DNA of 64,000 bases from Annona cherimola (taxonomy: Eukaryota; Streptophyta; Magnoliopsida; Magnoliales; Annonaceae), in assembly GCA_030490835.1 (NCBI GenBank), contig CM059971.1, positions 126,078,564 through 126,142,563 on the forward strand. The letters run 5' to 3'. Both the position numbers and the translations under genes were made by a program. The notes under the pieces are model-generated. The model made no database searches and was not told the DNA's origin. It saw only the letters and a program-made list of their open reading frames with translations. Shown piece by piece: positions 6,886 to 45,439 of the stretch (its first letter is position 1; every line of letters starts with the position of its first letter).

Positions 6886-7596
6886 ATGGCTTCTGCAATC
6901 TCCTCTTCTCCTTCTCCTCCCCCATTTTCCTTGTCTCCTTCCCTTCGCAAACCTCCTAATGCCACGTTTTTTCCCGCCATTTCAAGGACCTCAAAACCCT
7001 ATGTTCCATCCCTCCCTCTCCTCTCCAAATTTCTCCGCGCGAAGCCTCCCCACGTTCTGGGAAAACGCGAAGAACAGGCCCAAGCAACGGCCAGCGTCAC
7101 CATCGACAATGCCCTTGCCGATCTGCCAGATGCCATCCCTACCACCTGCTTCGTGATCAGGGCACGTAACAAGATCGGGATCCTCCAGATTGTCACCCGA
7201 GTTTTCAAGGTATTCGGGCTCAAGATCGAGAAGGCCAGTGTTGAATTCGCGGACGAGTTCTGGATCAAGAGGTTTTTCGTCACGGACTCCCGTGGGAAAA
7301 AGATAGAGGACAAGGAGAACTTGGATCGCATTGAGAAGGCGCTTCTGGAGGCGCTTAGTGAAGGTGATGGCAATGGTTTGGCCCAGGGGCCGGGTCCTGC
7401 TTCTAGAGGGGTCATGAGGAAAGTTGGAATTTTGCGTAATTTGGGGGACAAGAGAGCGAAAGCAGAGAGGATGTTCAGCTTAATGGATGGTTTTCTCAAG
7501 AACGATCCACTTAGCCTTCAGAAGGACATTCTAAATCACGTGGAATATACTGTGGCAAGGTCACGGTTCAACTTCGATGATTTTGAGGCTTACCAG
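6886..7596 (+). other. exon 1: transit-like leader plus ACT domain
   Basis: The exon encodes 237 residues. Residues 1-60 are rich in Ser, Pro, Lys and Arg with almost no acidic residues, as in plastid transit peptides. Residues 86-158 read as one ACT repeat: a first strand with [20 protein letters not shown], where N95-K-I-G98-I-L fills the place of the usual D-x-x-G-L-L ligand loop, then a helix, then strands around [20 protein letters not shown] ending near an acidic helix ([16 protein letters not shown]). ACT domains commonly bind amino acids and mediate allosteric control or dimerisation. Residues 160-195 are a Gly-rich then basic linker. Residues 196-237 ([19 protein letters not shown] onward) are the normal start of a phosphorylase core. 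The exon is also clearly more GC-rich than the flanking DNA. Confidence 0.8.
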
Positions 7597-10500
7597 GTAA
7601 TTTTGGTTGGTTTGTTTATCGCAAAATGAGGCTCTGTAGAAGATAATATACTTGAAATATGCTTAAATGAGGTTTGATGGAGCAAAATCTACTTGCATTA
7701 AGGTTGGAAGCATTTGCTTCGAGCTAATAGAAGCAGTGACACTGCTGAAGGTGATAGCAAATGGATAAGTTTCTCCAAACAAGATAAAGAAAATACCTAT
7801 CTGAGTGGTGATAGTATCAGCCAGCAAAAGTTTATCAGTGTTTCAACTTTTCACAAGGGATTTTGCTTATGCATGCATGCATGAGAGTGAATGTATTGCT
7901 ATCAACTACTAGAGATATTCTCCTCCTCTGGAGATTGAAGATGAACAGTCCGTTGGTCATAAGTTTGAACTCAAGCTCTGAGTTTCCTTTCTCTTGAGTC
8001 TTGAATGATCTTCATCTGCTGGGTGAAGAGCTTGTCACTGTTATAATGTTTTCTACAGGCACACAATGATCGGCACTGGGTAGGCAGGAAACTCATGCAT
8101 CAAATGCAGTGACTTTGTGTGAAAACTAGGCAAGCATGTCATTATCTTGGTTGATTCATTTTGATATGATCAGATTTCACGAGGTTCCTGTTTTTATAGA
8201 CATCCATGTATATTTTTTTGAGTAAGTTGATACTGCATACTTGGAGAAATAGGCAAGAGTCCAGTTCAAGTGACAAAATCTAATAAAAAGTATAAATATA
8301 AGTTGAATACATCTTGAATATTACCTTCCCTTGTGTTTTATCTGGGAAATAGTAACTTACTCGACTCAACAAACCACTATGTTGACCTAAATTTTCAAAT
8401 CCATAAATGAGTAACACACAGGGCATGCTAGGTTCATTTGGAGAATGCTGAACTATTGAAAACAGGAATTTTTGAAGCATAATTGTGAATCCATGATGGA
8501 TTTCTGGCTTTCAAAATTCGATAGAAATTCCCTGCAAAAAAATGCCAGTTTGGAATATGAAGATGTGCTTTTCGTCATGGGAACGTAACTTCCACTGACT
8601 TTTAACTGTTGCATTCGATAACTCAAAATACCATGTAAATGGCTATTAAGCATTGGAACTGTGTTCTGAAAAGATGGTTAAGAGGATGCTCTGCCATGAT
8701 ATTTGTGGAATGCAAATTGTAGTCCGCATGATTAAAGCAAACCCAAAGAGTTCAAACAAAACACAAAATTTCTAATATCATATTCTGCACAGCATTTTTC
8801 TCCTTTTTCCTTTGGTGAGTTTGTGAGATGTTCCTGTTACAAACAGCATTTGGATGTTCACCTTTTCATGTTTCCCATCCACACTATATACTGTATGGCT
8901 TATTACTGCTGGGTCAGTCTTTGCTTCCACCTTTATCATTGTCATCTTAAGTTGTTTCCAACCTAAGCGTGGCTAGTTAAATGGACACTGTTATGCCATT
9001 CCTATCAATCTCTAGTTTCGTTCTCAACAAGCCTAGGCACTTTTGTTCCTTTCTTTGTGACTTTTAGTTCTGTTCTTTTCGCCCATTGTTAGAAAAATAT
9101 GATAAGTAGGATATGACATGACAAGTTAAAACACCTTGTGTAGAGAACATTGATAAGTTGAATGTTATTTGTTGATTTTTTTTAGAAGTATCTTGTGTGG
9201 ATCTGATATGTTGATTTTATACAGAAGTATATTTTATTTCTCGTGAGTAGCATAGAGAGTCTCACCTTTTTGTTAAAAAGATAACTTTTCATAAATTAGA
9301 TGCATGCTAATAGTTTCTCATGGTTTTATTATGTATTCTCTTTTCTAATATGTTCTTGCATGGAGTTTCTGATTTCATCATTGTGATGTATCTGTAGGCA
9401 TTGGCACATAGTGTAAGAGACCGTTTGATTGAGCGCTGGCATGACACACAGCAGTTCTTTAAGAGAAAAGACCCAAAGCGCTTGTACTTCCTCTCTCTGG
9501 AGTTTCTTATGGGTATCATTATAACTTTTACTACTAGGGTTTCTTTGCTTCCTACCGCCACCCACAAATCTTTATGGATGATTAGACAAAATATAAATTC
9601 TTCTTCAAAGAAAATATAACCTTGTAGCGGATATTACCGTAGACTTATGAGTTTTTGTCAAACTAGAAGCTGAGTGGATATTAACTTCTCATGTGTGTAT
9701 GAAGTCGCATTCAGTTTTCTCCCTTTATTCTTATAAAAGTTCTCCTTCGAAAAAACTTAATAAGCCTTGTCCATTGTTTCTGTATTTTGCAGCTTTGTAG
9801 ATGATTGAGGAAAATATAGCTTCTTGACGGATGTCTTAAAAGAAAATTTGAACTCTAAGGGTGTGTTTGGCAATGAGTATAAAATGTCAAGTTAAAACTT
9901 TTCAATCTAAAACTTTTCACTTTCCACAACAATCATATTTTTTAATCATTTTTTCACATTTTCCTATACAACTACCCTACTTTTCAATCATTGCTACACA
10001 ATTAACCATACAACTAATCTATCTATTTTAACTTTATCCTCTTTACTCTTCATTATTACCCTTATCATATCACATCATTTGACAACTTTTATTTTCCAAA
10101 ATTTTTTACCAAAAGTTTTATCCATTCCCAAACACATCCTAAAGTGTATATTTTCTTCCATGTATGAATTTTAACGGTTAAACTTAAGGCTTGGTTCTGT
10201 TGAATACTATACATTTTACACCGCATTTAATCCTCGTTGTGAAATTGCTTCAAATATAAAACTGTAATGGGAAATGGGCCTTAAATTTTGGTTCTAGCAG
10301 TAAATGTTGACATAACTGAAATCATACATTAAATTATGATTCTACTGTCAGAGACTCTGCTTACATAGTTTTACCAGTGGACATATCTAACCAATCAGAA
10401 GAGAATATAGCTTTGTAAACATGGCAGATAAGAGTGCGTGCAGAATGCAAATTGCGGACAATCTACGTCATGCAGCTTCAGTGCTTGATTCTATTGCTAG

Positions 10501-13500
10501 ACTACTTGATCGTATTTATAGTTGGATTCATCTAGATATGGATATGGAGAAAAGCTAGATATAATAGTTGTGATTGGTTACTGGTAAGGTACTTGCTCTG
10601 GGTTGGTCTAAGATAAGCATGATGGCTCTGATGTTGTTTCCTAACAAATGGAGTGGACATTATCAGATGCAAAGAAGGTTGCCACAAGTTGAGTAGTAAT
10701 ATGGTGTCACAATGAGGTAGTTTTCAATAAATATCAGGTTATTCCCAAATATATCCACTACGTTTGACCTTAATTCTAAATATACCACTACGTTTCCAAA
10801 ATCCCAAAAATGTTCATTCCGTGAGTTAACCCCATTAGAGAATATGTGAAATTAGTAACATGCCCCTCAAATTTAGGACACAATTGGAAAAATTGAACGT
10901 TATAACTCACTAATACTTAATTGCACATTAATTCTAAATTTAAAGCTCTTTAATTTCATTTTCTTTTCATTTATTTCATCATTTATTATTTTACAACAGG
11001 GACATTTTGGGTATTTAAAAAAACTTAACTAACAGCTTTTGATGGAATGAGCATTTTTGGGATTAAATGCAAATGTAGTGGGTGTATTTAGGATTTTGGA
11101 AATGTAATAGGTATATTTGGAAATAATCCATAAATATTTGAAAAGCTACAGCTTTGGGTGGTTAGTTCTGGCAAAGGAGTTTGAGTCATGAATTTGTTTT
11201 TATATGAAACTTTATTTTGTCAGCTCAAGCTTACGTGATTCTTAAGAGAGTTTCATGGGCCTTTGTTAATGTACTGGTAATTTAATGTTTTGATATACCT
11301 TATAAGAGTAATAATCGGACGCAACTAGTTGCATGATATCATACCATGCAACTGTTGTTTTTCATTCTAATAAATGTTTTCATTAAATTCAATCCACATA
11401 TGATATTTATTAATATGTATTTATTGGCGATTCAAAGATCCACTTTGATTGGAAACATGTGTATTCTCATAATCATCATCATCATCATCATAAGTCATTT
11501 CCCACTTAGGTGCGGTCGGTTGCACAGATTCTGCTGCGCCATTCTTTTTTAATTACTTTCATCCATGTTTTTTGGGTTTTTCTCTCATTCTCCTACCACC
11601 TTCTACTTGAATAGACTTTGTTCTCCTAATCGGTGCTACTTCAGGCATCCTTTTAACATGGTCAAACCATCTTAATCTATTTTCTCTCATTTTATCACAA
11701 ATTGGTCTCACTTTTAAGTTTTCTCGAATTATTTCATTTCTAATTTTTATCTTTTTTTTGTTTTACCACTCATTTACCTTAACATTCTTATTTCTGCTAC
11801 GTTCATTTTTCGTATATGTTGTTCTTTAATTGCTCAACATTCTGCCTCATCAAGCATAGTAAGTCTAATCGCAATCTTATAAAATTTTCCTTTTAGTTTG
11901 ATTGGAACTCGACGGTCATATAAAATTCCTGAAGCACTTCTCCATTTTTTCCATCATGCTTGAATTCTATATATTATATCTTTCTCAATTTTCTCTTGAA
12001 CTATTGATCCTAGGTACTGGAAATGGTTAGTTCTTCTTACTACTTGATCTAAAATCTTAATTGGTTCCTCATCTGGGTTCTTACTATTATTAAAATTACA
12101 TTTCGTATATTCAGTTTTTGTGCGACTAATTCTAAAACCATTAGATTTTAAAGCATCTACCCACCTATTCAATTTTAAATTTGGTTCTTCTTTAGTTTCA
12201 TCTATTAGAACAATGTTATCTGCAAATAACATACACCAAGGTACTTCTTCTTGGAGATGTCTAGTAATTTCATCTATTACTAAGGTAAAAAGGTAAGGGC
12301 TCAAGGCTGAGCCTTGATGTAAACCTATTTTAACCGGGAAGATATTAGTATCTCCACTAATGGTTCTCACATTCGTAACAGCCCCCTCGTACATATCTTT
12401 AATAATATCAATGTATCTGTTATTAATTCCTTTATTTTTCATCACTTGTCATATTAACTTTATTGGTACTCAATCATATGCTTTTTCTAAATCAATAAAA
12501 ATCATATATAAGTTCTTTTTCTTCTTTCTATACTTTTCAAATAGTTGTCTAAGTAAGAAAATGGCTTCAGTGGTTGATCTTCCTGGCATAAAATCAAATT
12601 GATTTTCAGATACATTAGTTTTCCGTCTTAGTCTATGTTCAATTACTCTTTCCCATAATTTCATAGTATGACTCATTACTTTTATTCCACGATAATTTGC
12701 AAAATTTTGAATATCTTCATTATTTTTATAGATTGAAACTATAATGTTTTTCCTCCATTCACTTGACATTAGCTTTGTTTTTATAATCTTATTAAAAAAA
12801 TTTGATAACCATGTTGCACCTATATCTCCCATGCACTTCCATGCCTCGATTGGTATATTATCTGGGCCTAAAACTTTTCCTATTTTCATTTTCCTTAGAG
12901 CTTCATTTACTTCAGATATTCAAATTTTGGGAAATAACTGATATTTTTATTTTCTTTTCTATTTAAACTAACATCTAATGTTAAATATTCATGTGGGGTA
13001 TCATTTAGTAAACTATAAAAATAAGTTTTCCGTCTTTCTTTAATATCATCATCTTTCACTAGAACTCTTTGGTCCTCACTTTTAATACATCTAACATGTG
13101 TTAAATCTTTGCCTTTATTTTCTCTTAATTTAGCCAACTTAAAAATATCTTTTTCACCTTGTTTAGTTCATAATCTGTCATATAAGTTATCATAAGCTTT
13201 GTGTTCAACATCACTAATAATCTTTTTAGTAGCTTTTTTTTATAGTTTGTATTGTTGTAAGTTTGTATCATTTTTATTTCTGTGTCATGTTTTAAACTTT
13301 TCTTGTTTAGCATTTATAGCTTTTTGAACATCCTCATTCCACTACCAAGTTTCCCTATGCGAGGATCTATGGTTTTTATATATACCTACAATACTTTGTC
13401 CTACTTCTTTTATGTTAGTTGTCATTTTATCCCACATTGATTCTACTCTATCTTCTTGTGTATCCTATTTTCCTTCTTCTATAATTCTTTTAGTAAAAAG

Positions 13501-16500
13501 TTCCATGTTGTTTCCCTTTAAATTCTACCATTTAATTTTTGGAATTATATTGCCTTTAGTTTTTGTTGACTCTTTTTGTGTGTATATATCCATCACTAAA
13601 AATTTATGCTGCATAGCTAAGCTCTCACGTGGGATAACCTTACAATTAATACAAAGGGATCTATCCAATTTTCTTATAATGAAGAAATCTATTCGGCTAG
13701 AATTGGTCCCACTCTTGAAAGTTATCAAGTGCTCATCTCGTTTTTGAAATAAGGTATTTGTTATAACCAAATCATATGCTATAGCAAATGACATTCCCCA
13801 TTTCATTCCTTATTCCAAAGCCGAAACCTCCATGACTTCTTTCATATCCTTCATTCTCCTTTCCTACATGTCCATTTAAATCTTCACCTATCACAACCTT
13901 TTCCTAGTTAGGTATTCTTTGCATAACACTAAGTCATCCTAAAATTGTTTATTGATTCTATCATCTAATCCTACTTGTGGTGCATAAGCACTAATCACAT
14001 TTATGACTTCTACACCTACTACAAGTTTTATTTGAATAATTTTATCATTTACTCTATTGACATCTACAACTTTATTTATGAATTTGTTATCTACTATTAT
14101 CCTTACACCATTTCTATTACCATCCTTTCTTATATACCATAATTTGAATTCATTAATCTCTTTAGCCTTCTCTCCTTTCCACCTAGTCTCTTGAAAGCAT
14201 GCTATATTAATTCTTCTCATTCTCATAACGTCTACTACTTCCATACTTTTTCCTGAAAGAGTCTCAACATTCCATTAGGCAAAACGGACCTTGTGTTTTG
14301 GTACTACCTTCTTTTCTAAACCACGTCCATAAAGGCATGGGAACCTTTGCCTACTTCTCACCACAACCGGATGCTGTTGTGGCGCGTCGCTTCCGGGGAG
14401 ACGCCCTAGCAACCCTTGTCCATTTCTCACTACATCCGGGTTCCGATGTAGCACATCGCTTCTAGGGAAATGCCATAACAACCCTTGCTCGTTTCTCACT
14501 ACAGTCGGGCTCCGCTGCAGCGCGTCGTTTACAGGGGACGTCATAGCATTAACAACTTTTAGTATATTTTCAGAATCTATAAGAGATGCGGCGGTGATTT
14601 TTAATAGCACCGGCTGCCAGCTTGACATGCCAACTCTCGCTTTTTTTTTTGGGCTTGGGACCGGCAGTAAAATAGAAACTTTTACTGGCAAGGTTATTGG
14701 AAACATGTGCATTCTAAAAATTCAAAATCATTTGAAAGGGAATATATAACTGTTAAAATTTGGAAATAAATACACTTCCTATAAAAGTTTCCAATATGGA
14801 TCCATTTGGCGTTCAGTTTTAAAAAAAAGGACTTTGTCACACCTTTAAATATGATTTGACATCTTGCCTATCTAACTAGTCTACTTTTTCTTTTATCACT
14901 TCTATATTCCAATCATTTTTCACATTTTTCATATATTTTTCAATTTTGCTAGATGTTTTCCTTTTCCTTTCTTTCGATTTTTTTCCAGCATGTCTGTTTG
15001 CAAGCACTTTTTTTTTGAATTTCGGGAAGTTTCTTTTTGTTATCAATGATTGTTGCTAAAGAATTTTCTACATTTGGCATTTCAGGTCGTTCTTTGTCAA
15101 ACAGTGTAATAAATTTAGGCATAAGAGACCAGTATCTTGATGCCTTAAATCAACTTGGCTTTGATTTTGAAGTTTTAGCTCAGCAGGTTAGAATTATTTC
15201 CACTGTTATTCTTTTAAAACTCTTTCTTTTCTAGTTTGGATGCATCATGCGTAATATTTCAGAGTTTGCACTAAACACAGAGCTCTTTGCCTGTTTAATT
15301 CATTGATCTGCTTTGTTGGCAGATATGGATACACTCCCTATTATAAATGTGTTCGTATATCCTTCTTATGATTATATATAGATGTATGCTTATTTACACA
15401 CTTAAATTTGTACTTTTTTTTATGTTTATGTACATACAAACATTGATATGCATATGTATATACACGGAACTACTTTAGTGCAGCTAGTTTCTTTGAAATT
15501 TCGTAACTTATATTGAACTTGATCAGATATGTCTCTATCTATTTGATCATGACTCAAAAATCACTTTGATTGGATGTTCTAGCAGACCATAAAGGTATAA
15601 AAGCACAGAAAAATAAAAGGACAATTGTAGTATTATTTGGAACATCCGGGAGATTTGAGTGTGTGTTTCGTTAACATTCATTGGAATGGTGTTAATTGGA
15701 AACCTTTGGAAAGTTTCCACATTCTACATGTGGAAATTGTATTTCTGGGTGCAGAGCTTTTGCTGCTGAATTGAATGAGGCCTAGAAAGCTGTGCAAAAT
15801 CCTTTGTTCAACTCCTGGATGTGATGCTTGGTTTGATCCTTGCATGCAGCTATGTTGTGGGTTTTTTTTTGCATTTTAAACGCTCTAACTTTGCCTATTT
15901 GTATTTTAAACCTTGAAGTTTAGTCATTTGCATTTTAGGCCCTGTAAACTTTGGTTCTTTCGCATTTTAAACCCTAACCCATAACGGTGTTAAAAACTAC
16001 CGTTAATTCATGCAACATGACGCGAATACCCTCAAATATTTTTTTTAGAAAAAACTCAACTTTTTAGAAAAAACTCAACTTTGTAAAGGTGAAAATGTTG
16101 TTGGAGTCTCCGAGAATAAAATAAAAAAAGCCTAATAGTTAAGTTTAAAGCATAAAAAATTTCTTTTTTTTAAATATTGAAGGGTATTTATGTTATTTTG
16201 CATGAATTAACAGTAGTTTTTAATGCCATTTTGGGTCAGGATTCAAAATTAAAGGAATCAAAGTTTATAGGGTTTAAAATGCAAATGACCAAACTTCTAT
16301 GCAAATAGCAGAGTTAGAGGGTTTAAAATGCAAAAAACCTTATGCTGTTGTATGCAACATTGAACAAAGACAGATAGCATTGAAATGCATTCTCTTTAAG
16401 ACCTGTTTGTTTATGAAATTATGTCTTCTGCTGGATTTCAAGCTCCGAAAATCAAACTTTTTTGGGAAAATATTTTAGGAACTACATTATTACCCTTTTG

Positions 16501-18483
16501 GCACATCTATATGGACATCATATTTTTTTCATGACCTTCGTTTTGTGTTTCTTGAAGGAAGGGGATGCTGCCCTTGGAAATGGTGGCCTAGCTCGTCTTT
16601 CAGCATGTCAGATGGATTCCTTAGCAACAATGAACTTGCCTGCATGGGGGTATGAATATTGCTTGTCTCATTCCAAGAGTTTTCAATCATTGCTCAGGTT
16701 TGATGTGAAATTAAAGCTACTTTTATCAATATGAAGGTTCCTTTTAGTGCCTTAGGGATAGAGCATTGTTGAGTCCTGTAGTTATCAATCCAGCGATCCT
16801 CTATTTTGATTTGTCTTTTGTACAACTCAGGAAGCCATTCTCCTGTCTCAATATCACCATGTACTTTGAGCTCCTCTAGCAGTCCCCTATTCATGGACTT
16901 AACAACTGGCAAGGCTGGCACGACTTCATTTTGGATGTGGATTTTACTCTTGAAGCTGTTGTGCATCATATTTCATTACTAATTTACAGATGATAAGAGT
17001 ACTGGAGACTATTGAAAATGGATTGTGTTGTCCTTTGCAGTTATGGGTTGCGCTACCAGTTTGGGCTGTTTCGCCAAGTTATATTAGATGGGTTTCAGCA
17101 TGAACAACCAGATTGTTGGCTCAACTTTGGGAATCCATGGGAGATAGAGCGTGTTAATGTCTCATATGAAGTGAAGGTGTGCCCTTAACGAATCCTTGAG
17201 CTTGTTTCATATGTTGCTAATAAAAAATTCTTCTTATCATGTTGTCTTGCTTAAAATTTTCTCTCCTCTTTTGTTTCCATTATGATCCGAAATAGTTCTA
17301 TGGGAGTGTTGAAGAGAAGCTTCAGAATGGAGAAAAGTGCAAAGTTTGGGTGCCTGGAGAAACGGTACTACTTTGTGGATTTCTTTACACAAATATAATT
17401 GATGTATCTGACAATATTTTTCACTGGGCTGCCTATTTTGCTCTGTTGAGTTATTTACATTTCTCTTTAGCTGATTAGCCTAATTTAATGTAGGTTGAGG
17501 CAGTTGCTTATGACAACCCAATACCAGGCTATGGGACAAAAAATACAATAACCCTCCGCTTGTGGGCAGCCAAACCAAGTGGCAAGGATGACATTGTAAG
17601 TATATATTAAAATTCATGGTTTACAACTGTAAAAGTCTTTTTCCTCCCCTCAAAAGATAAGAAGCACAACTGTTTAAACCCTGGACTACTCTAGCAAACA
17701 GAAGGATCTCTCCTAGTTGAAGCAGCTAGTAGGTTCTGCCTTGGTCAAAATTTCTGCTTACAGATATCTGATTTTTCTTGCTTTATTGAGTTGAATATCT
17801 TGTTGTGTTACTTTTGCAACGTCCAGTTTGATCTTTGTACTTGTATATATGTTTGTGCTACGTCAAATCAACAAATCTGCAATGTTTTCTTTACTAATTT
17901 GAACCTGTTGTTAGTCATAAAATTCTCTAATTCATTAGCATTTTAAAATCCTGTTGATAAGCAAAATTTCCCTTGATCCATCTGCACTAAAACTAGAGAT
18001 GCCCCTTGTCTTTGTAGTTTGCAGCTGACCATTAGTTTTTGTAAATCTTGAAATTCAACTAAATATTAATAGCTTAATCAGATATGGTTTCTTTATAAAT
18101 CAGGTCCATTCAGCTTTCTGTTTACAATCTAGTTTCTAGTAAGTTTGAAATTTCCAAGTATTCAAAAGGATCCTTGGTAATGTATTGAAATCTCTTTTGC
18201 AGGAAGCATACAATACTGGGGACTATGTTAATGCTGTTATTAATAGGCAGAGGGCTGAGACGATAAGTAGCGTCTTATATCCTGATGATCGTTCCCATCA
18301 GGTATGTGGCATTTTATTTCTCAGCATTAAAAGTCAGTATTTTGACTTAACATCATGTGCAGAGCTCTAAGTATGGCAAGTATCTTTTTAATGAAAAAAT
18401 TATTATATCCTTGTAAAAGGGTTTTGTTGGTAAAAGGATATGGAAATTCGACAGGTTTAGGGAAAAAAAAAATTCGATAAGTA

Positions 18484-18515
<32 letters not shown>

Positions 18516-21500
18516 TATTATTTCTTGGTGGCATTTTTAAGGTCGAGTCGTTATCACAAGTTTCTTCATTACTGCTGTTGTCTCGTCTTGAATGCTTCAT
18601 TATTGTTTGTATGATTGTACTAAAAGAAAGGAATATGGGGAATCCATCAGAGCTTATAAGGCCAAAAGGAATGCTTACAATCGTTAATCCTAATCATTGA
18701 ATTTCATCACTATAAGATTTTATCCAAAAGCAAACATTTTCATTAAAAAATCATAGCATGAGAATGTCGTGTTCCCAAAAATCAGTTCTCTCCTACTTCC
18801 CTATCTTAAGAGGCAGGTCATGATAACTGCTGTATAGAGCCTCACCTTATCTAATCCTGTAAAAACAAAAAAAAACAAAAAATTGAATATAATCCGTGTT
18901 TCATGTGCAAATTCATGATCAGGTTAAGAAGTTATCTCCTGATTCCTAAAAGCACACTGGGCAACTATTTATTGGAACTTGCCCTCTTTTGTGCGCCATT
19001 AGAAGCTTTCTTTCTAACAAGCCATCTGCATTCCAAAACTCTTGACGGGTCATTTATTTTCTGCACACTGAAGAGGGAACATTTTGGACTAAAGAATAAA
19101 AGCCTTAAGTCATCTTGTAGAATGGTTTAACCCAAGAGACACGAAAAATGCCTGTAAGGACGCCAGAATTCTGGGTCTAATATTGATATGTTAACATGAT
19201 TGATCCATGCCAAAGTATTAGCAAACTTTTGAGTGTCATGTTATCATGATCCTTGTGGTTGTTATCATCAACATCATTATTATTATAATGCTAGTATTTG
19301 TTTGTTCTCTCACAAGTCTTTAAGATGGAAAATTTCCAGCAGATGTTATAAGATTTTTTTGATCTAATATCTTTCTTTACAAATATTTGTTTTCTTCGAG
19401 GTGTTTTTAAGAATCATTTGAAAAAAGAGGAAGAATAGAGGGTCAAACCTAGAATTCATTTTTTGTTTTCCTGAGTATTTGAACAGCCTTTTGTCAGAGT
19501 AGCATCCGCCAACGGTCTTCTATTATTTGAATTACTAAATTTGTTGAATTTCGGAAAAACCCATGTTTTCATTAAAAAAGTGTTGGGGGGAATCTGGGAA
19601 AAAGGATAATTCTAGTCAATCGAGTGAACAAAGATAATTAGAGAAGTGAAATTTTGTGAGTTGACTCCTCAAGTGAACCAAGTCTCAATCAAACGTATCT
19701 ATGATATCTTAATTCCTGTAAAACTGAGCTATCACTTGCTATATTCTGTTTTCGGTTCTTATTTTATTTTATTTTTTTGGCTGTATTTTAGGGCAAAGAA
19801 TTACGGTTGAAGCAACAATATTTGTTTGTCTCTGCATCAGTACAAGACATCATTCGGAGATTTAAGGATTTTCACAGTAATTTTGATGAGTTCCCTGAGA
19901 AGGTCAGTCTAATATGGTTGTTCTTGACTTTCACTTTCTATAATTACCACATTCACATGTATAGTTTTGGCTTGAAGTTTCTCTTTTCCAGCATATATTG
20001 TTTACAGCGCAAGATTAGCAGTGTTCCATGTGTGTCATTATTTTATTCCTTGTTCTCCTTTTCCTTATTCACTTTGGTCACCTTGTCATGCATAAATTGA
20101 TTTAAATTTGGACTGCTTAAGAAGGGAAACATTTTGCAGGTAGCTCTGCAACTTAATGATACTCACCCTTCTCTTGCAATAGCTGAGGTCATGAGAGTGC
20201 TTGTGGATGAAGAACATCTGGATTGGAATCGGGCATGGGGCATTGTTTGCAAAATTTTCTCACTAACAAGTCACAGTGTGCAGCCAGAAGGACTAGAAAA
20301 GATCCCTGTTGATCTGTTGGGCAGCCTTCTTCCACGGCACTTGCAAGTGTGTTGTTGCATATTTATACAGTTTTGTATTCCTTCACTGAATATCTTTCTC
20401 TTTTGTCTAGCATGATGTGTTGGCTATTCCTTTAATCTGGTTGTCTATTCATTTCTTTCTTCCGCAATAAATTTTGATCCCCTCTTTTGTCACCCAGATC
20501 ATATATGAAATTAATCACAATTTCATGGAGGATCTGAAAAAGCATATTGGGCTTGATTATAGCCGTCTAGCTCGAATGTCAATAGTTGAGGAAGGTTCTG
20601 TGAAGGTAAGTGATCCTGCAGCCTCTCAAGGTCTTTTCTCTCCCTATCCAGTAGAAATGGCCTTTAGGGGAAACCATAGCATGCAGTCGCAGCCTTGAGT
20701 CTAAAAACCTTTTCCTTGTTCTGTTGAGCTCCTTTGCTTTTGTTCCAGTGCATATCAAGGCATACTGGTTAAAATAATGTTTTCTTTTGCAATTGTATTA
20801 GCATTAGCTCCTCGAGAACACTGTGCGTTTATATCTTCTTTTAACTGCCTAGTTGAATTCTTTGACTCTTGTATTGTGTGGTTCAATATACATTCTTTAA
20901 GGATTGTTTAAAACCTTTCTTCCTTCATTTCTATTGAAGCAAAGGCTGATGAATTTTTAAGGCAAGCTATACATTTCCAATTTTATTGCAGAGTATCAGG
21001 GTGGCAAATTTATCAATTGTTTGCTGTCATACCATTGATGGTGTATCCCAAGTTCATCTAGAATTATTGAAGACGAGAGTCTTCAAGGTAACCTATGTAA
21101 TACTCACTTTTTCTCTTTTTCTTGAAAACTAACTGCAATGATGGTGATAATAAATCCTTGTCCTTCTTCTACCGAATACGATTTGTCAAATCAAATTTGA
21201 CCATGGATGTCCATCGCGAAATCAGGAATTTATGGGTTCCAGCAGCATTACATCTGGTCTTCATGGATTCCATGTTTTCTTAATTCGACCAATCTGTAAA
21301 TGAAATCAAGGTTTAGATTATTGAGAAGTTTTCTTACCCAATATAGTTGCTTCTTACCATTGATTTTTGACCTGAGATTGTTTTTGGTCCTATGGTTAAT
21401 CTGTGGATGGAGTTAGAGTATTCGCACCAAGCAATAGATCTAATTTTGGAACAACAACAAACAACTGAATACCCTTTGCACTGGACACTGATCAACTTCA

Positions 21501-24500
21501 TCTGAAAGGAGGTTTAATTGGTGACTTTTTCTAGTTGCAGAAAGGTTCATGGGTTCACTTGATGATATTTGCAAGTTATGCTGTAACAGTCTTTTCCACC
21601 TTATAGTGTTCTTAGTAGAGATGTTGAAAGGGTGCAAGTACAATAAGAGTTGCTTATTTATATTGTTCGTTGTCCATAATATGATTATGTTTCCTAACTA
21701 TGACTCATGTTGAGACACTTTTTGGTAAATTTGACTAGTTATTGTTCCTTCTCATTTGTAACAGTGACCTTTTCATATGAAAATTGTATTTTGTTGCTTC
21801 AATTGGTAGTTCATATTTGTGTTTACTTTGTTTTTGTATGTGTGTGTATGTCTATGAGAAATGCTCCAATACAACTGATTGCAATGTACAATCATTTTTT
21901 TTCTAATTTTTTATTTTTTGATGTTTTATTTTATATCCAAGCCATCCATCATATTTTCCTCCATTTATATTTGCATAACATGAAACATCATGTTATTTGG
22001 ATTCATATAAAATCCAGAAGTGTAAATGCCTGAGATGATTTATAATCGTTGCTTCTATGAAACCTCTCTTCTATGTAACCCCCCTTCATTTTTAATGTCT
22101 TGGGTTAATGAAAAACTCACTTCATCTATTGTATTTAGCATCATTTATATTATCAAGAAAATCCTTTCATTTGTCTAGTATCATTATGTATGGGTCCCAT
22201 CTATAAATGTGTAAAATTAACGTGATCAAATGGTTTAATGCTAAAGATCAATTTTAAAGTTATATTCTCAACATTTAAACCATTTAAAATATCATTTCTA
22301 TATGGATAAATAATTCTATAAAGTATTATTATATTCTAATACATGTGTAAATGGATTAAGAGTTTTTCATAATTTACACACGAATATATATGAACAAATG
22401 TGGCTTATACGTATACTTGATTTGGATAAAAATTGGTTTCTTAGCTAAACAAATTATGTTAAATATAATGAATTGATTGAATTTTTCATCAAACATCCAA
22501 ATCTTAAATTTTGAAGGGATTGCATGGAACCACTTCTATATAACCTGGTTACATAGAAGCAGGGCCTATTTGTAAGATTATTTTTTTATGGGCATGCTTT
22601 TTAAGATTATTGATCATGAAAGTTCTTGATTCACTTGATTTTTGGTATGTAGGCTAAATAAATTATTTTTAGTACAGCGCATGGATTGGATGTTGAGAAA
22701 AATAAAAAGATGCATATCTATCTATCTGTCTGTCTGTCTTCATTATATGAATTTTTGCTATAGAAAGTACTGAGAAAGCATTCAACACTTCTACAGGATT
22801 TCTATGAGCTTTGGCCCCATAAATTTCAGTTCAAGACAAATGGTGTCACTCAGGTGCATATGTTACTTCTTTGATGATATATCGTATGTGAAATCTAATA
22901 TCTTGTAGTAGTCCATTGCCTGTAAACTTCACATCAGTTTCCTAAAATCTTGTATTCTTCTAGTGCAGTTAAGTGGGCTATCATGCATTGCTCTCATGAA
23001 ATCAAGTTAGTTATGTCTGCAATGTGCAATGGCCAAAAAATTGTTTAATTGTTACCCAAAAACATCTAAAGTGAAGGACTTCCTCTAGTTCTATTGTACC
23101 TTCTTGAATCCTCACATTTGAAAATTTGAATTTGACTTTGACTTTAAGCTGTTCAGGGTACATCTGTCATAGTGTGAACTACAAGAATGCGTCAAACTAG
23201 CGTGAACTACCTTCAGCTCTATGTTGTTATAATAGAAAACTATTAAGAGAGCTGAAATGATAATGCAGATATTTCATCTTCTTGTTTTTGTGCTGTTTCT
23301 GCATTTGATCTTTCTTTAGTTGCGTTACACAATTCCATCTTTAGAATGATCAAGTTTGCCCATCTGATCGTTAATTTTCCTATACCTAGGCTAGTTATTG
23401 ATGGTTGACACCAGTTTTTAATTTTGCTATGCCTGGAACATAATTACACTAGAAGCCAAATAGCTCTTACAAAGAAACTGAACTGGCATTAGTCACTTTT
23501 TGCCTGACACTTCTAACCTGTCATCTATCAGCGTCGCTGGGTTGTTGTGAGCAATCCTGGCCTGTGTAGTCTTATCTCAAAGTGGCTTGGAACAGAAGCT
23601 TGGATATGTGACATGGACCTCTTGATAAGCTTACGAGACCATGCAGACAACACTGATCTGCAGAAGGAATGGCAAATGGTACTTCAAATGAAAAACGCAT
23701 GCATGCCTATCTTTGGGAAAATGTTGCAGAGGAAAGGAATCTCACATTGGGCTTGCCTTTTCAGGTCCACCGAGTTAATAAAATGAGGCTCGTTGAGTAC
23801 ATTGAAGCTATGAACGGTTTGAAGGTTAGTGAATAATCTGTCTTTGCAGATTTGCCTCTTGGGTTCTGTTCAATTCTATCCATTGGAATTGTGTTATTAT
23901 ATGCTTCCGCATTCTGGCATTAAGCCTCTTTCAAATATAGGTAAGCCCTGATGCAATGTTTGATGTGCAAATCAAGCGAATACATGAGTATAAGAGGCAA
24001 CTGCTAAATCTTCTGGGTATCATTCATCGGTATGACTGCATTAAGGTAGATAATGCCCTTTCTTTATGGTTATTATTGTTTGTTGTAATTTTTTTCTTCT
24101 GACATGCTGATTGGATAGACCACAGTGGTGTCCACTAGGCCTCTTTCTCTTTTTGAAGAAGCTTTAGATTGCATTTGGATGCAACTGCAGAAAGGGAACT
24201 TGATGGATCTGTTGGACAAAATGGGAAAAGGGATAGGAAAGAGGCGAAAAAAAGAATTCTGAAAAGCGGATGGGAAAGGAGGGAATGATGTGATGTGATT
24301 AGGTGCATCATTGGAACAGAAAAATATAAGGATACAAGAGAAAATTTTTCATATAAAAATTTGGGAGATAATGATTGAAAATATGGATACCAATGAGGGA
24401 AATAAGGTTGCGAAATAAACTGTCACAACATATTGCCATGGGTGAAAGTGGGATGGAAAATTTTTCTGACCCTTTCCCTCTCACAATAAGCGAACTACAA

Positions 24501-27500
24501 AAGCATTACTAGTTGACAACAATTTGAAATGCTATTTTTCCATGAAATGGGCTTCCTAGCACTCATCTCTAAGTTATTGGTTGGCAGCTAATTGGAAGGA
24601 AGGACTTGTTTTTGACAAAAATTCCTATTCCTCTAGAGAAATGATTCTAGCCAATATCGTATCTGGGAACCAATGTTCTCAATAGACACTCTTGCAAGTG
24701 GCACCTTGATTTAAGAAAGCAAAGCAAAATTCAAGATAATCTATTTTGTTGCATTGAACAGAAAGGCTAAAATTTCTTTTATAATGCTTCAAAATTAAGG
24801 TTTTGCCTAGAAGGGGGCTTTATGTTAATATAAAAATCCGAAAAAATACTAATGTAGTATAGTAGTGATGATAACAGTAGTAGTAAATACTACTAAGTAC
24901 TAACACCAATAATAATAACAATACAAGATGCAGAAGAAATACTAGGGAATCCAATAGACACCATAGAATTAAACTGGCATGGCTGCATGGGTGGTTCCTA
25001 ACATAAAACCCAAAACAAGCCTGATCTTTCTTATATGTGTTTTAAATACATGTAATAAAGACATATGAAGATATCATCAAGCTCAGCCCAAGTTAACAGG
25101 TTTTAAAGTGTAATCCTATGGTTGGGTTTGAAGTACTGTATATCTGGCTTTTGACTGGTTTCGGGTAACTTATCTGAAGGACCAAGTATGTTCCTTAGGG
25201 CATGTGGTCAGGTACTGAGTCTGACCACCTTATTGCACCCAGGTCAAGTGATAAACAGGTGAAGCCTTTGAATGGCATCCAGCACACTGATTGTCACATA
25301 CTTTCTTGCTGTTATCTTTTTCTTTTTCTTATCTTATTAGAATGCTGTGACTTGCTTACTTGCATTTGTCATCTGAAGCTTCAAAATGCCTTTCTTGACT
25401 TTTTCCTCTTTCCGCTTTTCTAGAATATGAATGAGAGTGAGAGAAAAAAGGTTGTACCTCGTGTCTGTGTGATTGGAGGGAAAGCTGCTCCTGGTTATGA
25501 AATTGCCAAAAAGATTATCAAACTCTGTCATGCTGTTGGAGATATGATCAATAATGACCCTGATGTAGGAGATCTGTTGAAACTGGTACGCTGTGATTCA
25601 ATGTCATGAGGCTATAGATTAAATTCATTAAATTCCATGTCTTCAATATAATGATTGAATTAGATATTCCGTCGCTCGTAGATCTTGACGATTTTTACCT
25701 GCAGAACTGTCTGCCCGGAAATTGGATTAAAGTTTGTAATGAGTTTAGTATCAGGATATTCCTTCTGCTGTTAGATCTTGACAATTTTTAGCTGCAGAAT
25801 TCTCTGCTTCTGAAATTGGATGTAAATCTTAAGGCACATGACCATTAGGTGAAGACCCAAATCCTGAAGCAAACAAGCTGACCTTGCCACTTGAGTAGTT
25901 AGGATCCATCCTGGACACTCTGGCTATATAAATTCATAGACCATCTGGGCTGGGTGATTTATTGACCTTTACTTGTGACCAACTGCCCTGCTCAACTCGA
26001 TCTGCCCCCTGAACTTATTGCTAAGCTTGGCAGCCTCTTGACTCAGCCCAGACCTTGCAGAAATCTGCCTGCACTACAGGTGGCTTAGGAACAGGATAAT
26101 CTCACTATGTCCACCCAAATCCTTCCTTTTGAGTTTTCTGCGATGTTCTGAGCAATAGGTGACAAGGTTTTGTTTTCTTATGCTGCTGGCCATTCAAGGC
26201 TAGTCGCAATTCAATTGCTATGGCTGATTATTGCATATTTGCAGGTTTTTATTCCTGATTACAATGTCTCTGTGGCTGAACTGGTGATCCCGGGGAGTGA
26301 TCTTTCGCAGCACATCAGGTCTGACAAATACTTGTGAGGTTCTTTATTGTTCACTTGATGGTGGAACAACGGTCACTATAGTTCACAAGTGTTCATTTTA
26401 TTTTTGCGGTTGCAATTCAATGGAATCAATTCCATGATTGGACTTCATTGAACCTTCAAAATCCAAGCTGTTATATTATTTAACATCATTTATTTTGTTA
26501 TGGTACCAAAAATCATTTTAATTGGAGTTTTGAGTGGGCCTTGCTACTTAAAAGATATGTTATCATGTGTCTATTGTGAAAAACACTTAGATTTATTCAC
26601 AATTGCATTAGAATGTCATAATAATTTATAGAATCATTCACTTACATAGGAAGAAAGGTTTAGACGGTCTACATGTTGAATTAACAACCCTGAAATTGGT
26701 GTGTGTGTGTGTGTGTGTATGTATATATATATATATCATTATCATCATCATCATAAGCCATTTCCTATCTGTGTAGGGTCAATTGTATGGATTCTGTTAT
26801 GCCATTGGCGATCATCAACTAAGTTTTTAGTAATCTTTAACGTTTTCATATCTTATTTATTACTTTCATCCATGTTTTTTAGGTACTTTCATTTTCTTAC
26901 CACCTTTTATCTGAATAAATTTAGTTCTCCTAACCGGTGCCATTCAGGCCTCTATTTAGCCTGTCTAAACCATCTTAGTTTGTTTTCTCTCATTTTATTA
27001 TCTTTTGACTTCACCTTTAGATTATCTCGAAACTTTGCTAATAGTAGTTTCTATCATATTGTTGGTCCTAAGCCTAAGTAAAAAGTGAGAGTTGGCATGT
27101 TAGGTTGGTAGTCGGTGTTATAAAAATTTGTCACAATTTTCTTCATGGATTCTGAAATTGGTACATAAATCAAACTTTTTTATTACATTGATTTTACATT
27201 TTAATTTGATGGGGCCTATGCAGTGGTTTGATTTATATGAAACTTGATTTCCTTTTTTAAAAAAATTCTAAATACAATGGATGAAGTGGATTTCATATAA
27301 TTATCACGTTGGGCTCCATAGGAAGAGGTTCCATGAATCGGAATTCATGGAATCAGTTCCATTGATTTGGAACCCTTATTTGTTTACAAGAAAATATCCT
27401 CTACGCTATTTAGGTCATTCATAACAGAATCTTGGTTTCTGTTAATGAAACGAATCTTTATTATCACAAACCCACCATAACAGAAAAGGGAAAAAAAACC

Positions 27501-29180
27501 CAGACCGCAATATCTTGATTTTCATCTTTTAGTTTAGAAAAATGGGAAATTTCTTGTATGAACGAAATCCCATATTTTGAGGATGTTAGTTTTTTTGCTG
27601 AACTTTTTAGCAGTTGATCTAAAGGAAGTCATTTTTTTATTTTTTGCCTTGATCTGTTTTCAAATTTGGCTTGCAGTACTGCTGGTCATGAGGCTTCAGG
27701 TACTGGCTCTATGAAATTTCTGATGAATGGGTGTTTACTATTGGCTACAGCTGATGGGTCTACTATCGAAATCATTGAAGAGATTGGAAAAGAAAACATG
27801 GTGGGTTTGATCTTAAATAATTTTAAAACCATGAAGGCCATCAAGCATCTGCCTATGAGTAGTATCTGGATGTTTTTTTTGTTATTATTATTCTCTTTGG
27901 TTCTTTCGATATGGATGAATCAACTGATGGTTTTTCTATTATGCGAGACTTTTATTGCCTTAAAAAGGAGAAGGTTTTGATATCACTGTAAATCTTTCTG
28001 GAATTTGCATGACTCCAGCTTGGGTTAAACTTACAAAATTTCAAGGATTTCTAGCTCTTGATGTGGTTATGCTGCCCCCTTTGCTAATGACTTCGGCTTC
28101 TGGTTTATATTGCCCCTTTGGCTGATGAGTTCCACTTATATTGACTGGAACGGTTGGTTTATGTTGACTTAAGAGTTAGATTACAAAATATTCATGTAAA
28201 ATGCTTTCCATGAATTGTGCTACGGCAAAATACACATCAGCTATGATACCAGTCCAATCTAATATCAGTGTGCTTGGTACAAGATTCTTATCTATACATG
28301 ACAGTAGTGGGTCCGGGCTAGAGTAAAGTCTGTGATGTTCTGTAATTGATCTTTTTTTGCTGTTGATGACATGTAATTGATCTTTTTTGAATTCATCGTT
28401 TGCTTATAATTAATTTTTAGAATTTCCCAGATAGCTGGGCTGCTGCTAAAAATTGACCATGTGCCTTTCTTTCCTTTGTTTAGTTTATCTTTGGTGCAAA
28501 AGTAGAGGAAGTGCCTGCTTTACGTGAGAAAGGATCTGCCCTTAAAGCACCTCTGCAATTCGCGCGTGTTATCAGGTTAGTGTACTATGAAGAGGCACGA
28601 ATTTTTGCTTCTCTATGTGGCACTTTCTTATTTGTAGACCAGCTTCATGGTCCTTTGCAAACCCCAGCCCCCAATTGTTGTTTTGGACCATGCACAGGGT
28701 ATTTCCTCGTTAGTTTCTTGCATATCAAGTGGAATGCAAAAGGTTTATGATGGAATTTGCATTCTTCTAATGTTTTTATGCTATTAAAAATCCGTAGGAT
28801 GGTTCGGGATGGTCATTTTGGATACCAGGACTACTTCAAATCATTATGTGATGCGATAGAAAACAATGGTGATATCTATCTTCTCGGACATGACTTTGCA
28901 AGTTATCTCGAAGCACAGGTAAGTTTTTGAGCTTCTATTTTTAAACATTTCATATGCTATTGTGTTTAACAGTTGCAACAGTGGTAAAATGGACTGGACG
29001 TCAACTGAGAACAAAAAGCAATGGCAGGCTGCTGCAGACAAGGCATTTATTGACCAAAAGAAGTGGACACGAATGAGCATCATCAGCACTGCTGGTTCCG
29101 GAAGATTCAGCAGTGATAGAACCGTCGGTGAGTATGCCGAGAAGACATGGGGAATCAAGCCATACAGGTGTCCTTTATAA
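6886..29180 (+). CDS. ACT-domain alpha-glucan (starch/glycogen) phosphorylase, 22 exons, about 1,013 aa
   Basis: GT35 alpha-1,4-glucan phosphorylase (EC 2.4.1.1), which releases glucose-1-phosphate from starch or malto-oligosaccharides with pyridoxal phosphate (PLP). Order of parts: Ser/Pro-rich plastid-transit-like leader (residues 1 to about 60), ACT domain (about 86-158), linker, then the whole phosphorylase core (about 200-1013). Catalytic features seen: glycine loop GNGGLARL (316-323), His630, Asn664 in [13 protein letters not shown] (749-757), GGKAAPGY (791-797), [10 protein letters not shown] (856-865) with PLP lysine K864. The roughly 78-residue insertion of the classical plastidial L-isoform is absent between exons 11 and 12. 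All 22 exons join in frame without a stop. The start is the first ATG of exon 1, 158 bp after a TATA box. Exon 1 continues the core alignment, so the ACT region is in the same reading frame. The catalytic family is certain; plastid location and ligand control are inferred. Confidence 0.93.
9859..10139. repeat. Tourist-like MITE, copy 5, in phosphorylase intron 2
   Basis: 281 bp, the cleanest copy: GGGTGTGTTTGGCAATGAGT at the left, TTCCCAAACACATCC at the right, TAA duplications at 9856-9858 and 10140-10142. Confidence 0.75.
10736..11129. repeat. Mutator-like foldback (MULE-MITE) in phosphorylase intron 2
   Basis: About 95-bp terminal inverted repeats (left GGTTATTCCCAAATATATCC, right ending GGTATATTTGGAAATAATCC). 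Both arms carry a CCAAAATCC and CCCAAAAATG block. Flanking ATAAATATC (10727-10735) and ATAAATATT (11130-11138) are an 8/9 match, as expected for the 9-bp duplication made by Mutator-type transposases. No coding sequence. Confidence 0.65.
11468..14695 (-). mobile_element. RTE-type LINE, near full length, inactive, in phosphorylase intron 2
   Basis: A 3.2-kb non-LTR retrotransposon antisense to the host gene. Its 3' end (low coordinate) is a CAT/ATG trinucleotide tail (about 11470-11492), typical of RTE-clade LINEs instead of poly(A). Its 5' end is at 14695. It is bounded by a 20-bp target duplication, ATTGGAAACATGTGTATTCT at 11448-11467 and the same with one change (C for T) at 14696-14715. 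It encodes, in order, an AP-type endonuclease and a reverse transcriptase, both broken by frameshifts and stops. The near-identical target duplication sets both ends firmly. Confidence 0.85.
11954..14244 (-). pseudogene. broken endonuclease-reverse transcriptase ORF of the RTE LINE
   Basis: The frame is split into at least four blocks. 14244-13939 is the endonuclease start, with CFQETRWKG and [13 protein letters not shown] motifs. 13137-12907 is linker. 12889-12470 is the RT finger/palm, with [21 protein letters not shown] and FIDLEKAYD. 12445-11954 is the RT palm, with [13 protein letters not shown], followed by FADN where the catalytic FADD is expected. Blocks are joined by frame shifts or stops (the region 13800-13940 and the join at 12446-12469 among others). 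The loss of the second catalytic aspartate and the breaks mark it as dead. Family assignment is from motif memory. Confidence 0.8.
15860..16340. repeat. Mutator-like foldback in phosphorylase intron 3
   Basis: Arms: left GGTTTTTTTTTGCATTTTAAAC through CTCTAACTTTGCCTATTTG, and right GCAAATAGCAGAGTTAGAGG through AAAATGCAAAAAACC. Inner blocks also pair (ACGGTGTTAAAAACTACCGTTAATTCATGC with its partner near 16200). Flanks TATGTTGTG (15851-15859) and TATGCTGTT (16341-16349) match 7 of 9. Non-coding. Confidence 0.55.
18484..18510. repeat. AG dinucleotide microsatellite in intron 8
   Basis: About 13 AG/GA units, uninterrupted. A candidate length-polymorphic site. Confidence 0.9.
22051..22560. repeat. 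foldback element family 2 in phosphorylase intron 12
   Basis: Starts GCTTCTATGAAACC and ends GGTTACATAGAAGC (inverted, one mismatch). Sub-terminal arms also pair: AATGAAAAACTCACTTCATC near the left, and GAATTGATTGAATTTTTCATC near the right. The same family recurs at 58882-60110. No coding sequence. Confidence 0.6.
22717..22739. repeat. TCTA/TCTG tetranucleotide microsatellite in intron 12
   Basis: TCTA units change to TCTG units within about 23 bp, 60-80 bp before exon 13. Confidence 0.8.
26701..27151 (-). mobile_element. 5'-truncated, 5'-inverted RTE LINE copy in phosphorylase intron 18
   Basis: From the left: a GT/AT microsatellite and a CAT tail (26701-26757); then about 300 bp matching the 3' end of the LINE at 11468 in the same (minus) orientation (for example GTTCTCCTAACCGGTGCCATTCAGGC and CTGTCTAAACCATCTTAG); then 27062-27151, matching the LINE 5' region in the opposite orientation (AGAGTTGGCATGTTAGGTTG against the reverse complement of about 14600-14670). 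Direct repeats CTGAAATTGGT lie at 26690-26700 and 27152-27162. This layout is the signature of twin priming. Confidence 0.75.
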
Positions 29181-31459: not shown

Positions 31460-31698
31460 CCCGAACCCGTGGACCTCGAACATTCTCACGCGTGGAACTT
31501 AAAACCTTTAAAATTTGCAAAGAACACAAAAGGACTCGAACCTCCAAGCATCCATCCAAAGGTTGATCTCCTTATTATTTGCTTACAAGTACTAATCTTT
31601 TTTTTTATTGATTACTCAGGTTCTTCACCATAGCTCGGGGGCAAAACCAATCAACCGTGGATCGAAGCCCCGTGGTTACCAGATCAAGAGCGGCTAGG

Positions 31699-44656: not shown

Positions 44657-44737
44657 CATTAAGATTATCCCCATCTTTCACCACCTACAGCTGCAGGTAG
44701 CCTTAATTGTGTCCCGTTGTCACCCGATCGATCGCCC

Positions 44738-45439
44738 ATGGCAGCTGCCGCAGGCCACATCTCCTTCCTCATCTTCCTTCTCTTCCTCGCCTCCTCCTCC
44801 CTCCACACCCAAGCAAGGTTGCCCAACCTCTTCCGCCAGACGACACGCTTTAACGTTGCTACTGAAGACTCCATCCCAAAAGAAGAAGAAGACAATCAGT
44901 ACCACTTCACGTCCTCGACCGCTTCACAAAACCCCAACAGGGATGGCGGGCTGTTCGGCTACTACGATCCTGAAAAGAATTCACGTGAAAAGTCCACCAA
45001 GTACTACAACTCTGATGCCTACGAGCAGTACGACCAGGACCCTCTAAAAAGCTCGCCCATCGACACAAACTACTACACAAAAGAAGAAGAAGAAGAAGAT
45101 CATGACTTCCAACTCTACCGCGACCAAGCAATAGCAGAAAAGAAGCCGCTGCCATTCACGAGCGCGTCGTCTAACTACCACAACTACTACGGTACTGGTA
45201 GTCGTAGCAGCAGCAGGTACCAAGACGAAGAGACATACGACAACAGAGACAAGCAACATTATCATGGCATGGAAAATGGGCGCTACTTCTACGACGACGA
45301 AATCAGCGGCAACGCGGTGGATGGAGGAAGCCGTGGAAGGTCGTATGCTGCTTCTCAATACAACTATAATAGTAATGAGATGAATAAGCAGCAGCAGCAG
45401 GCGCAGCAGGGGGAGCCTCGCGACGGATTTACGCCCTAG
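44738..45439 (+). CDS. E6-like secreted tyrosine-rich protein (233 aa)
   Basis: Single-exon gene. Residues 1-26 are a clear signal peptide (HISFLIFLLFLASSSLHTQA, then RLP). The mature part is hydrophilic, rich in Tyr, Asn, Ser, Asp and Glu, with an acidic run (116-121) and a Gln run (218-221). Family marks are GLFGYYDP (71-78) and MENGRYFYDDE (178-188), which match the GLYG and LENGKYYYD elements of cotton fibre protein E6 and its many dicot relatives. E6 proteins are secreted, wall-associated and abundant in elongating cells; their biochemical role is unknown. The ATG at 44738 is chosen because the signal peptide starts there. Pro-Tyr-type crosslinking is plausible but not shown. Confidence 0.85.
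   Translation: MAAAAGHISFLIFLLFLASSSLHTQARLPNLFRQTTRFNVATEDSIPKEEEDNQYHFTSSTASQNPNRDGGLFGYYDPEKNSREKSTKYYNSDAYEQYDQDPLKSSPIDTNYYTKEEEEEDHDFQLYRDQAIAEKKPLPFTSASSNYHNYYGTGSRSSSRYQDEETYDNRDKQHYHGMENGRYFYDDEISGNAVDGGSRGRSYAASQYNYNSNEMNKQQQQAQQGEPRDGFTP

Follow-up and report, generated by a model that had tools for sequence, protein, structure and literature searches.

The 64,000-nucleotide stretch of Annona cherimola DNA analyzed here (the window) carries an open frame in which an ACT domain appears to run directly into a starch phosphorylase. This raises the question of whether the two form one gene, what the ACT domain might sense and whether the attached enzyme is an ordinary phosphorylase. 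The reading to which we give roughly even chances is that of an intact PHO3 gene encoding a plastid-imported GT35 alpha-glucan phosphorylase, tuned by a ligand through an N-terminal ACT domain of the GlnD/ACR kind.

Gene structure and published relatives of PHO3

Hand splicing produced a gene of 22 predicted exons on the forward strand (6886-29180, with 29180 as the last base), in which all 21 introns begin with GT and end with AG and the predicted coding sequence measures 3042 nt, equivalent to 1013 aa plus a stop. The gene therefore extends over ~22 kb, compared with the 2.6 kb covered by an earlier interpretation of the same letters (the sequence-only reading), whose coordinates for exon 1 (6886-7596) and exon 2 (9398-9512) were nevertheless exact. 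The frame of exon 1 is open from its ATG up to the donor GT (7597) and carries on in exon 2 across the 1.8 kb intron 1. Further downstream, hand splicing placed exon 3 at 15086-15186, exon 5 at 17041-17176, exon 6 at 17296-17364, exon 7 at 17494-17595, exon 8 at 18203-18301, exon 9 at 19792-19902, exon 11 at 20498-20605, exon 13 at 22797-22853, exon 14 at 23532-23678, exon 15 at 23765-23824, exon 17 at 25424-25585, exon 18 at 26245-26318, exon 20 at 28484-28575, exon 21 at 28798-28918 and exon 22, with its TAA stop, at 29028-29180; the five other exons are given below with the residues they encode. A spliced-alignment script returned the same core exon limits, which serves as a consistency check only, as the script was fed our own predicted protein. 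Judging by its open frame, the locus is a real and intact gene.

Four parts are encoded by exon 1. The leader (6886-7068) comprises 61 S/P-rich residues, contains no D or E by sequence alone (the first acidic residue is 62) and is a putative plastid transit peptide. It is followed by the ACT domain (residues ~70-160; 7093-7365), a linker and the first 31 residues of the GT35 core (residues 207-237; 7504-7596). The open frame, together with an alignment to PDB entry 4bqe that starts at residue 207, bears out the proposal that exon 1 runs without a stop into the phosphorylase core and continues in frame past 7597. Fusion of an ACT domain to a phosphorylase, the central claim of the sequence-only reading, was confirmed by the spliced open frame, the GT35 profile and the ACT fold. 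When the Annona genome assembly (792 Mb, 1370 contigs) was scanned, exon 1 proved to be single copy, with itself as the one full match; the next-best match (38% over 52 residues, E 0.003) lies in an ORF that passes the Pfam ACT cut-off.

This architecture has already been published, and the locus belongs to the described PHO3 family. According to the available text of the 2016 description (PMC5005325), PHO3 of Lotus japonicus has an ACT domain, lacks the L78 insert that is present in PHO1 and has a chloroplast signal and location; the same text calls PHO3 the orthologue of Chlamydomonas PHOB/STA4 and credits the first such protein, from Jatropha and other dicots, to Wu et al. 2015. The Annona protein is like both Lotus PHO3 and PHOB/STA4 in having a leader, one ACT domain and a GT35 core without L78, and in standing apart from PHO1 and PHO2; nothing basic was found to separate them when they were compared by published description rather than by sequence. 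A third plant phosphorylase group, SP3, was named glycogen phosphorylase 1-like in a 2024 family survey and has one gene copy in 14 of the 17 species surveyed, including V. vinifera (available text of PMC11183051). The word ACT is absent from the main text of that survey in a whole-word search, and we infer that SP3 corresponds to PHO3, which fits the earlier suggestion that relatives annotated under this name exist in other angiosperms. The accompanying statement that no biochemical description was known is superseded, as the available 2016 text reports the location, an overexpression phenotype and attempted assays of Lotus PHO3 (PMC5005325). The term ACT domain did not appear in a term search of a 2025 review on the plastidial enzyme, and the available parts of PMC11395678, PMC12736364 and PMC10493611 describe no ACT phosphorylase. 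Two features seem to go beyond the literature searched, namely the GlnD/ACR kinship of the ACT domain and 20 core departures peculiar to PHO3.

The GT35 core and its departures from conserved sites

The Pfam Phosphorylase profile (PF00343) matched PHO3 residues 296-1006 with 971.8 bits over profile positions 1-713 of 713. A PDB sequence search with PHO3 matched 48 entries, the best of which (4bqe, 895.9 bits), a cytosolic PHO2-type enzyme (Arabidopsis-type), aligned in one continuous stretch. By comparison, each of the four listed chains of the plastid type (9lpw, 9m80, 5lr8, 8r48) aligned as two separate parts, the pattern expected for a PHO3 without L78, and the insert is absent from PHO3 judging by its predicted protein. 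Alignments with full-length muscle phosphorylase chains begin only at chain position 25-26, equivalent to PHO3 209, and the ACT domain and linker of PHO3 therefore probably occupy the place of the N-terminal tail of the animal enzyme. In animal phosphorylase this tail is regulatory.

At least 39 exon-sized GT35 matches were found in the Annona genome, distributed over four gene places: PHO3 on C1, one gene on C2 and a tandem pair on C6. By similarity, the C2 gene is PHO2-like and the C6 pair (PHO1a and PHO1b, ~13 kb apart; G000:C6:4467001-4492000, L019-L021) is PHO1-like. The core models of PHO1a and PHO1b share 739/808 aligned residues, and PHO3 is identical to the PHO1a model at 409/801 aligned residues and to the PHO2 model at 393/801. 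A tree of 83 rows joined PHO1a, PHO1b and PHO2 to the exclusion of PHO3 (support 1.0) and placed all four plant GT35 rows in one group (support 0.899), setting the PHO3 lineage apart from PHO1 and PHO2 as far as sequence can tell. PHO1 and PHO2 share the GT35 core with PHO3 and differ from it in the L78 insert of PHO1, in the 20 conserved-site differences and in the ACT domain, which tblastn did not detect in the vicinity of either the PHO1-like pair or the PHO2-like gene (E 100; 20 and 25 kb fetched around the genes). This search returned short fragments only (best E 2.3), from which a very diverged ACT could escape, and agrees with the earlier claim that classical plant phosphorylases have no ACT domain.

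Bacterial and viral GT35 sets served for comparison. Scanning bacterial contigs with the whole PHO3 protein found no relative, and scanning them with an alignment of PHO3, PHO1a and PHO2 found 91 relatives. The best 80 of these were taken, and 79 loci were aligned after leaving out the partial L106; this set is biased because the patterns came from plant proteins and 11/91 relatives were left out. No ACT-GT35 fusion was found among these best 80 of 91 bacterial relatives. In 5/80 bacterial ORFs (L073, L047, L055, L100 and L076) the GT35 match was preceded by more than 100 residues, and these N-terminal parts matched no Pfam or NCBIfam family at E 0.01. As a separate observation, L047, from a Prevotella MAG, departs from consensus at 29/217 conserved columns, compared with 12 for the next bacterial row, and its contig is possibly a misbinned eukaryotic one. 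On IMG/VR viral contigs, 202 GT35 relatives were detected, 80 of which (L111-L190) were taken; no GlnD was found on the viral contigs.

Residue K864 (exon 19, 27677-27800), which we take to be the PLP lysine, is K in 79/79 bacterial rows and 80/80 viral-contig rows. PHO3 keeps it and also keeps K749, R750, Y754 and K755 (exon 16, 23941-24045), H557 (exon 10, 20140-20346), E856, S858, G859 and T860, all presumably catalytic residues. On the strength of the full-length profile match and the PLP lysine, the predicted protein is a GT35 phosphorylase. At 217 columns that are each at least 95% conserved across the 79 bacterial rows, PHO3 departs 35 times, compared with 25 for PHO1a and 24 each for PHO1b and PHO2. 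Twenty departures are private to PHO3; the PHO1 pair has 5 of its own and PHO2 has 6, the last being an upper estimate because the PHO2 model has doubtful stretches. At the 135 columns invariant in all 79 bacterial rows, PHO3 departs at 16, PHO1a and PHO1b at 6 each and PHO2 at 3.

Thirteen of the 20 PHO3-only sites and seven PHO3-kept sites were inspected in an alignment of the 80 viral-contig ORFs, and the consensus residue was present in 80/80 rows at all 20 sites inspected. Seven positions at which PHO3 differs from all 80 are 556 (S for N), 558 (S for T), 563 (G for A) and 567 (I for W) in exon 10, 633 (D for N) in exon 12 (20992-21087), 862 (S for N) in exon 19 and 321 (A for G). Exon 4 (16558-16649) encodes the glycine loop, where a motif of the GLGRL type reads GLARL. 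The change of P to Q at position 668 is not peculiar to PHO3, as Q also occurs in 12/79 bacterial rows. We take PHO3 633, 558 and 563 to correspond to rabbit N484, T378 and A383, with N376, W387 and N678 as further rabbit positions used in the comparison, and the D633 site to be a glucose O6 contact. The glucose-site set is therefore not wholly conserved in PHO3, differing at 633, 558 and 563, and the residues for PLP and phosphate are retained.

By these counts the core of this PHO3 is unusually altered, through changes that may or may not be aimed at the pocket and common to other PHO3 proteins. Ordinary catalysis is not assured because 20 otherwise conserved core positions have changed, and the departures may be relevant to the inactivity of the Lotus protein, which once purified showed neither synthetic nor phosphorolytic activity on the substrates tested (available text of PMC5005325). 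An unlikely alternative to a tuned glucan phosphorylase is that PHO3 does not work as a normal G1P/alpha-glucan phosphorylase. Its changed glycosyl pocket would then accept another sugar phosphate or acceptor, or the protein would serve mainly as a regulator or scaffold within a complex of starch enzymes, receiving its input through the ACT domain. The excess of PHO3-only departures over those of PHO1 and PHO2, the seven sites at odds with every viral-contig ORF and the inactive purified protein all favor such a change. Against it, the presumed catalytic residues are kept, the PHO3-only departures do not cluster significantly around them by linear distance (four window sizes, with Fisher p values of 0.20, 0.23, 0.19 and 0.07) and a crude E. 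coli extract containing full-length Lotus PHO3 showed 2.5-fold phosphorolysis, as given in the available 2016 text (PMC5005325).

The ACT domain and its possible ligand

Two NCBIfam GlnD profiles matched PHO3 residues 60-162 (NF003467, 4.2e-9; TIGR01693, 2.9e-8). The match falls at the C terminus of GlnD (positions 831-928 of the 940 in the model), and the whole-protein cut-offs of these profiles (959 and 519 bits, respectively) are out of reach for one domain. As a control, ACR-like ORFs of the Annona genome were found to match the same C-terminal region. Residues 799-888 of E. coli GlnD aligned along their length with the PHO3 ACT domain (21%, E 0.001). Pfam alone misses the domain, as ACT_ACR9_3rd scores 14.2-17.3 bits where 27 is required, and a PDB sequence search with the ACT domain alone gave only two rows, both chance matches (E 0.74 and 3.6). 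The Pfam search proposed in the sequence-only reading for both domains thus recovered GT35 and left the ACT domain under the cut-off; its fear that profiles might find no ACT is answered by the GlnD match.

AlphaFold2, run in single-sequence mode on residues 60-165, gave a model with mean pLDDT 77.3 and pTM 0.71 and with secondary structure elements in the order b-b-a-b-b-a. Modeling all of exon 1 gave a poor result (mean pLDDT 55.7), which was left out of the fold search. Foldseek with the ACT model returned 1411 PDB fold matches (best E-value only 1.9e-3), and the 50 listed were mostly ACT proteins, by title or known identity, as were most of the 50 PDB matches listed by VIA-align. The modeled domain is accordingly ACT-like in its alpha/beta fold and, by its profile matches, of the GlnD/ACR kind. 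An ACT domain had been placed at residues 86-158 before; the domain is real and those limits are slightly short, given the extent of the NCBIfam matches and an extra modeled strand near VTIDN, upstream of the earlier start. A VxIDN stretch before the ACT core is common to PHO3 and the own-genome ORF L014.

Plant ACR proteins resemble GlnD, and the ACT domains of GlnD are reported as glutamine sensors (available texts of PMC3173338 and PMC12702975). The PHO3 domain is of the same ACT kind as the C-terminal ACT domain of GlnD and those of plant ACR proteins, but it is the only ACT of its protein and is fused to a phosphorylase, compared with two ACT domains in GlnD and between two and four in ACR proteins (available text of PMC3173338). 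The word phosphorylase is absent from the main texts of both papers, and in the literature searched, which covers few subscription journals, we found neither a ligand reported for the PHO3 ACT domain nor a tie to GlnD or glutamine.

Because the domain is of the GlnD/ACR kind, glutamine is the first candidate ligand, and it is reasonable to infer a connection with amino acids. In the mechanism that we favor, PHO3 would be imported into plastids, and its ACT domain would sit at the place of the N-terminal regulatory tail of animal phosphorylase. In a phosphorylase dimer the two ACT domains, one per subunit, would come together as a pair that binds a small ligand, with an amino acid as the likeliest choice; binding would tune the enzyme, so that the nitrogen status of the chloroplast could affect starch breakdown or priming. 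The available 2016 text gives no purified-protein activity and no ligand, and its authors did not exclude regulation of PHOB by amino acids (PMC5005325). Overexpression of Lotus PHO3 lowered leaf starch by ~30%, an effect independent of nitrogen supply, which counts against nitrogen tuning, and seriously retarded growth under nitrogen deficiency (same text). The inactivity of the purified protein also counts against this mechanism and, together with the substituted core, may point to another substrate or to a role in regulation.

The top Foldseek rows among the matches listed were the ACT-like domains of the plant bHLH factors GL3 and R. These domains serve dimerisation, and on a rather improbable reading the PHO3 ACT domain would likewise be a ligand-free module for dimerisation or partner binding that places PHO3 in a complex, for example with branching enzyme. 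Consistent with this, the DxPGLL loop is lost: PHO3 reads NKIGIL where E. coli GlnD has DQPGLL and the second ACT domain of L014 has DRPGLL, so that PHO3 retains the glycine but neither the acid nor the proline. The change is weak counter-evidence to ligand binding because ACR-like ACT domains of the Annona genome vary there too (NRLGLL in L024 and KHSILL in the first ACT of L014). A role in a complex has been suggested for PHOB, as told in the available text of PMC5005325, yet the sequence profiles point to GlnD, a reported glutamine sensor (available texts of PMC3173338 and PMC12702975).

Ligand tuning and an altered core could also be combined. A glutamine-responsive plastid PHO3 that has moved off ordinary glucan phosphorolysis through an altered glucose pocket, acting on another glycosyl substrate or as a non-catalytic regulator of starch, strikes us as improbable; if true, it would account for the inactivity of the purified protein. 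The GlnD-kind ligand class and the list of substituted residues make direct tests of a coupling between chloroplast starch turnover and nitrogen accessible. Finally, that exon 1 is part of a separate ACT-domain gene only seemingly joined to the phosphorylase is scarcely credible and was rejected: although the joining is predicted from genomic sequence and intron 1 measures 1.8 kb, the single-copy exon 1 itself holds core residues and its GT donor is in frame with exon 2, and Lotus PHO3, with its cloned cDNA, is described with the same architecture (available text of PMC5005325).

Other elements in the window

Intron 2 of PHO3 (5.6 kb) contains a degenerate LINE on the strand opposite to the gene (11954-12919, reverse strand, possibly extending to 14274). 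Two of its ORFs match RVT_1 in Pfam (5.9e-14 and 1.2e-11), and a third (13939-14274) matches no Pfam family and is endonuclease-like by eye only. Positions 26740-27130 in intron 18 resemble, by eye, the region around 11440-11700 of intron 2 and are likely a second LINE fragment. Just downstream of PHO3, a single open frame of 2121 codons (31612-37977, forward strand) was judged by eye to be a Ty3-type LTR retrotransposon with gag, protease, RT, RNase H and integrase-like text. A further forward-strand ORF of 258 residues (44663-45439) has a signal-like start and a Y/N/E-rich body; it matches no Pfam family at E 0.01 and presumably resembles a plant E6-like secreted protein.
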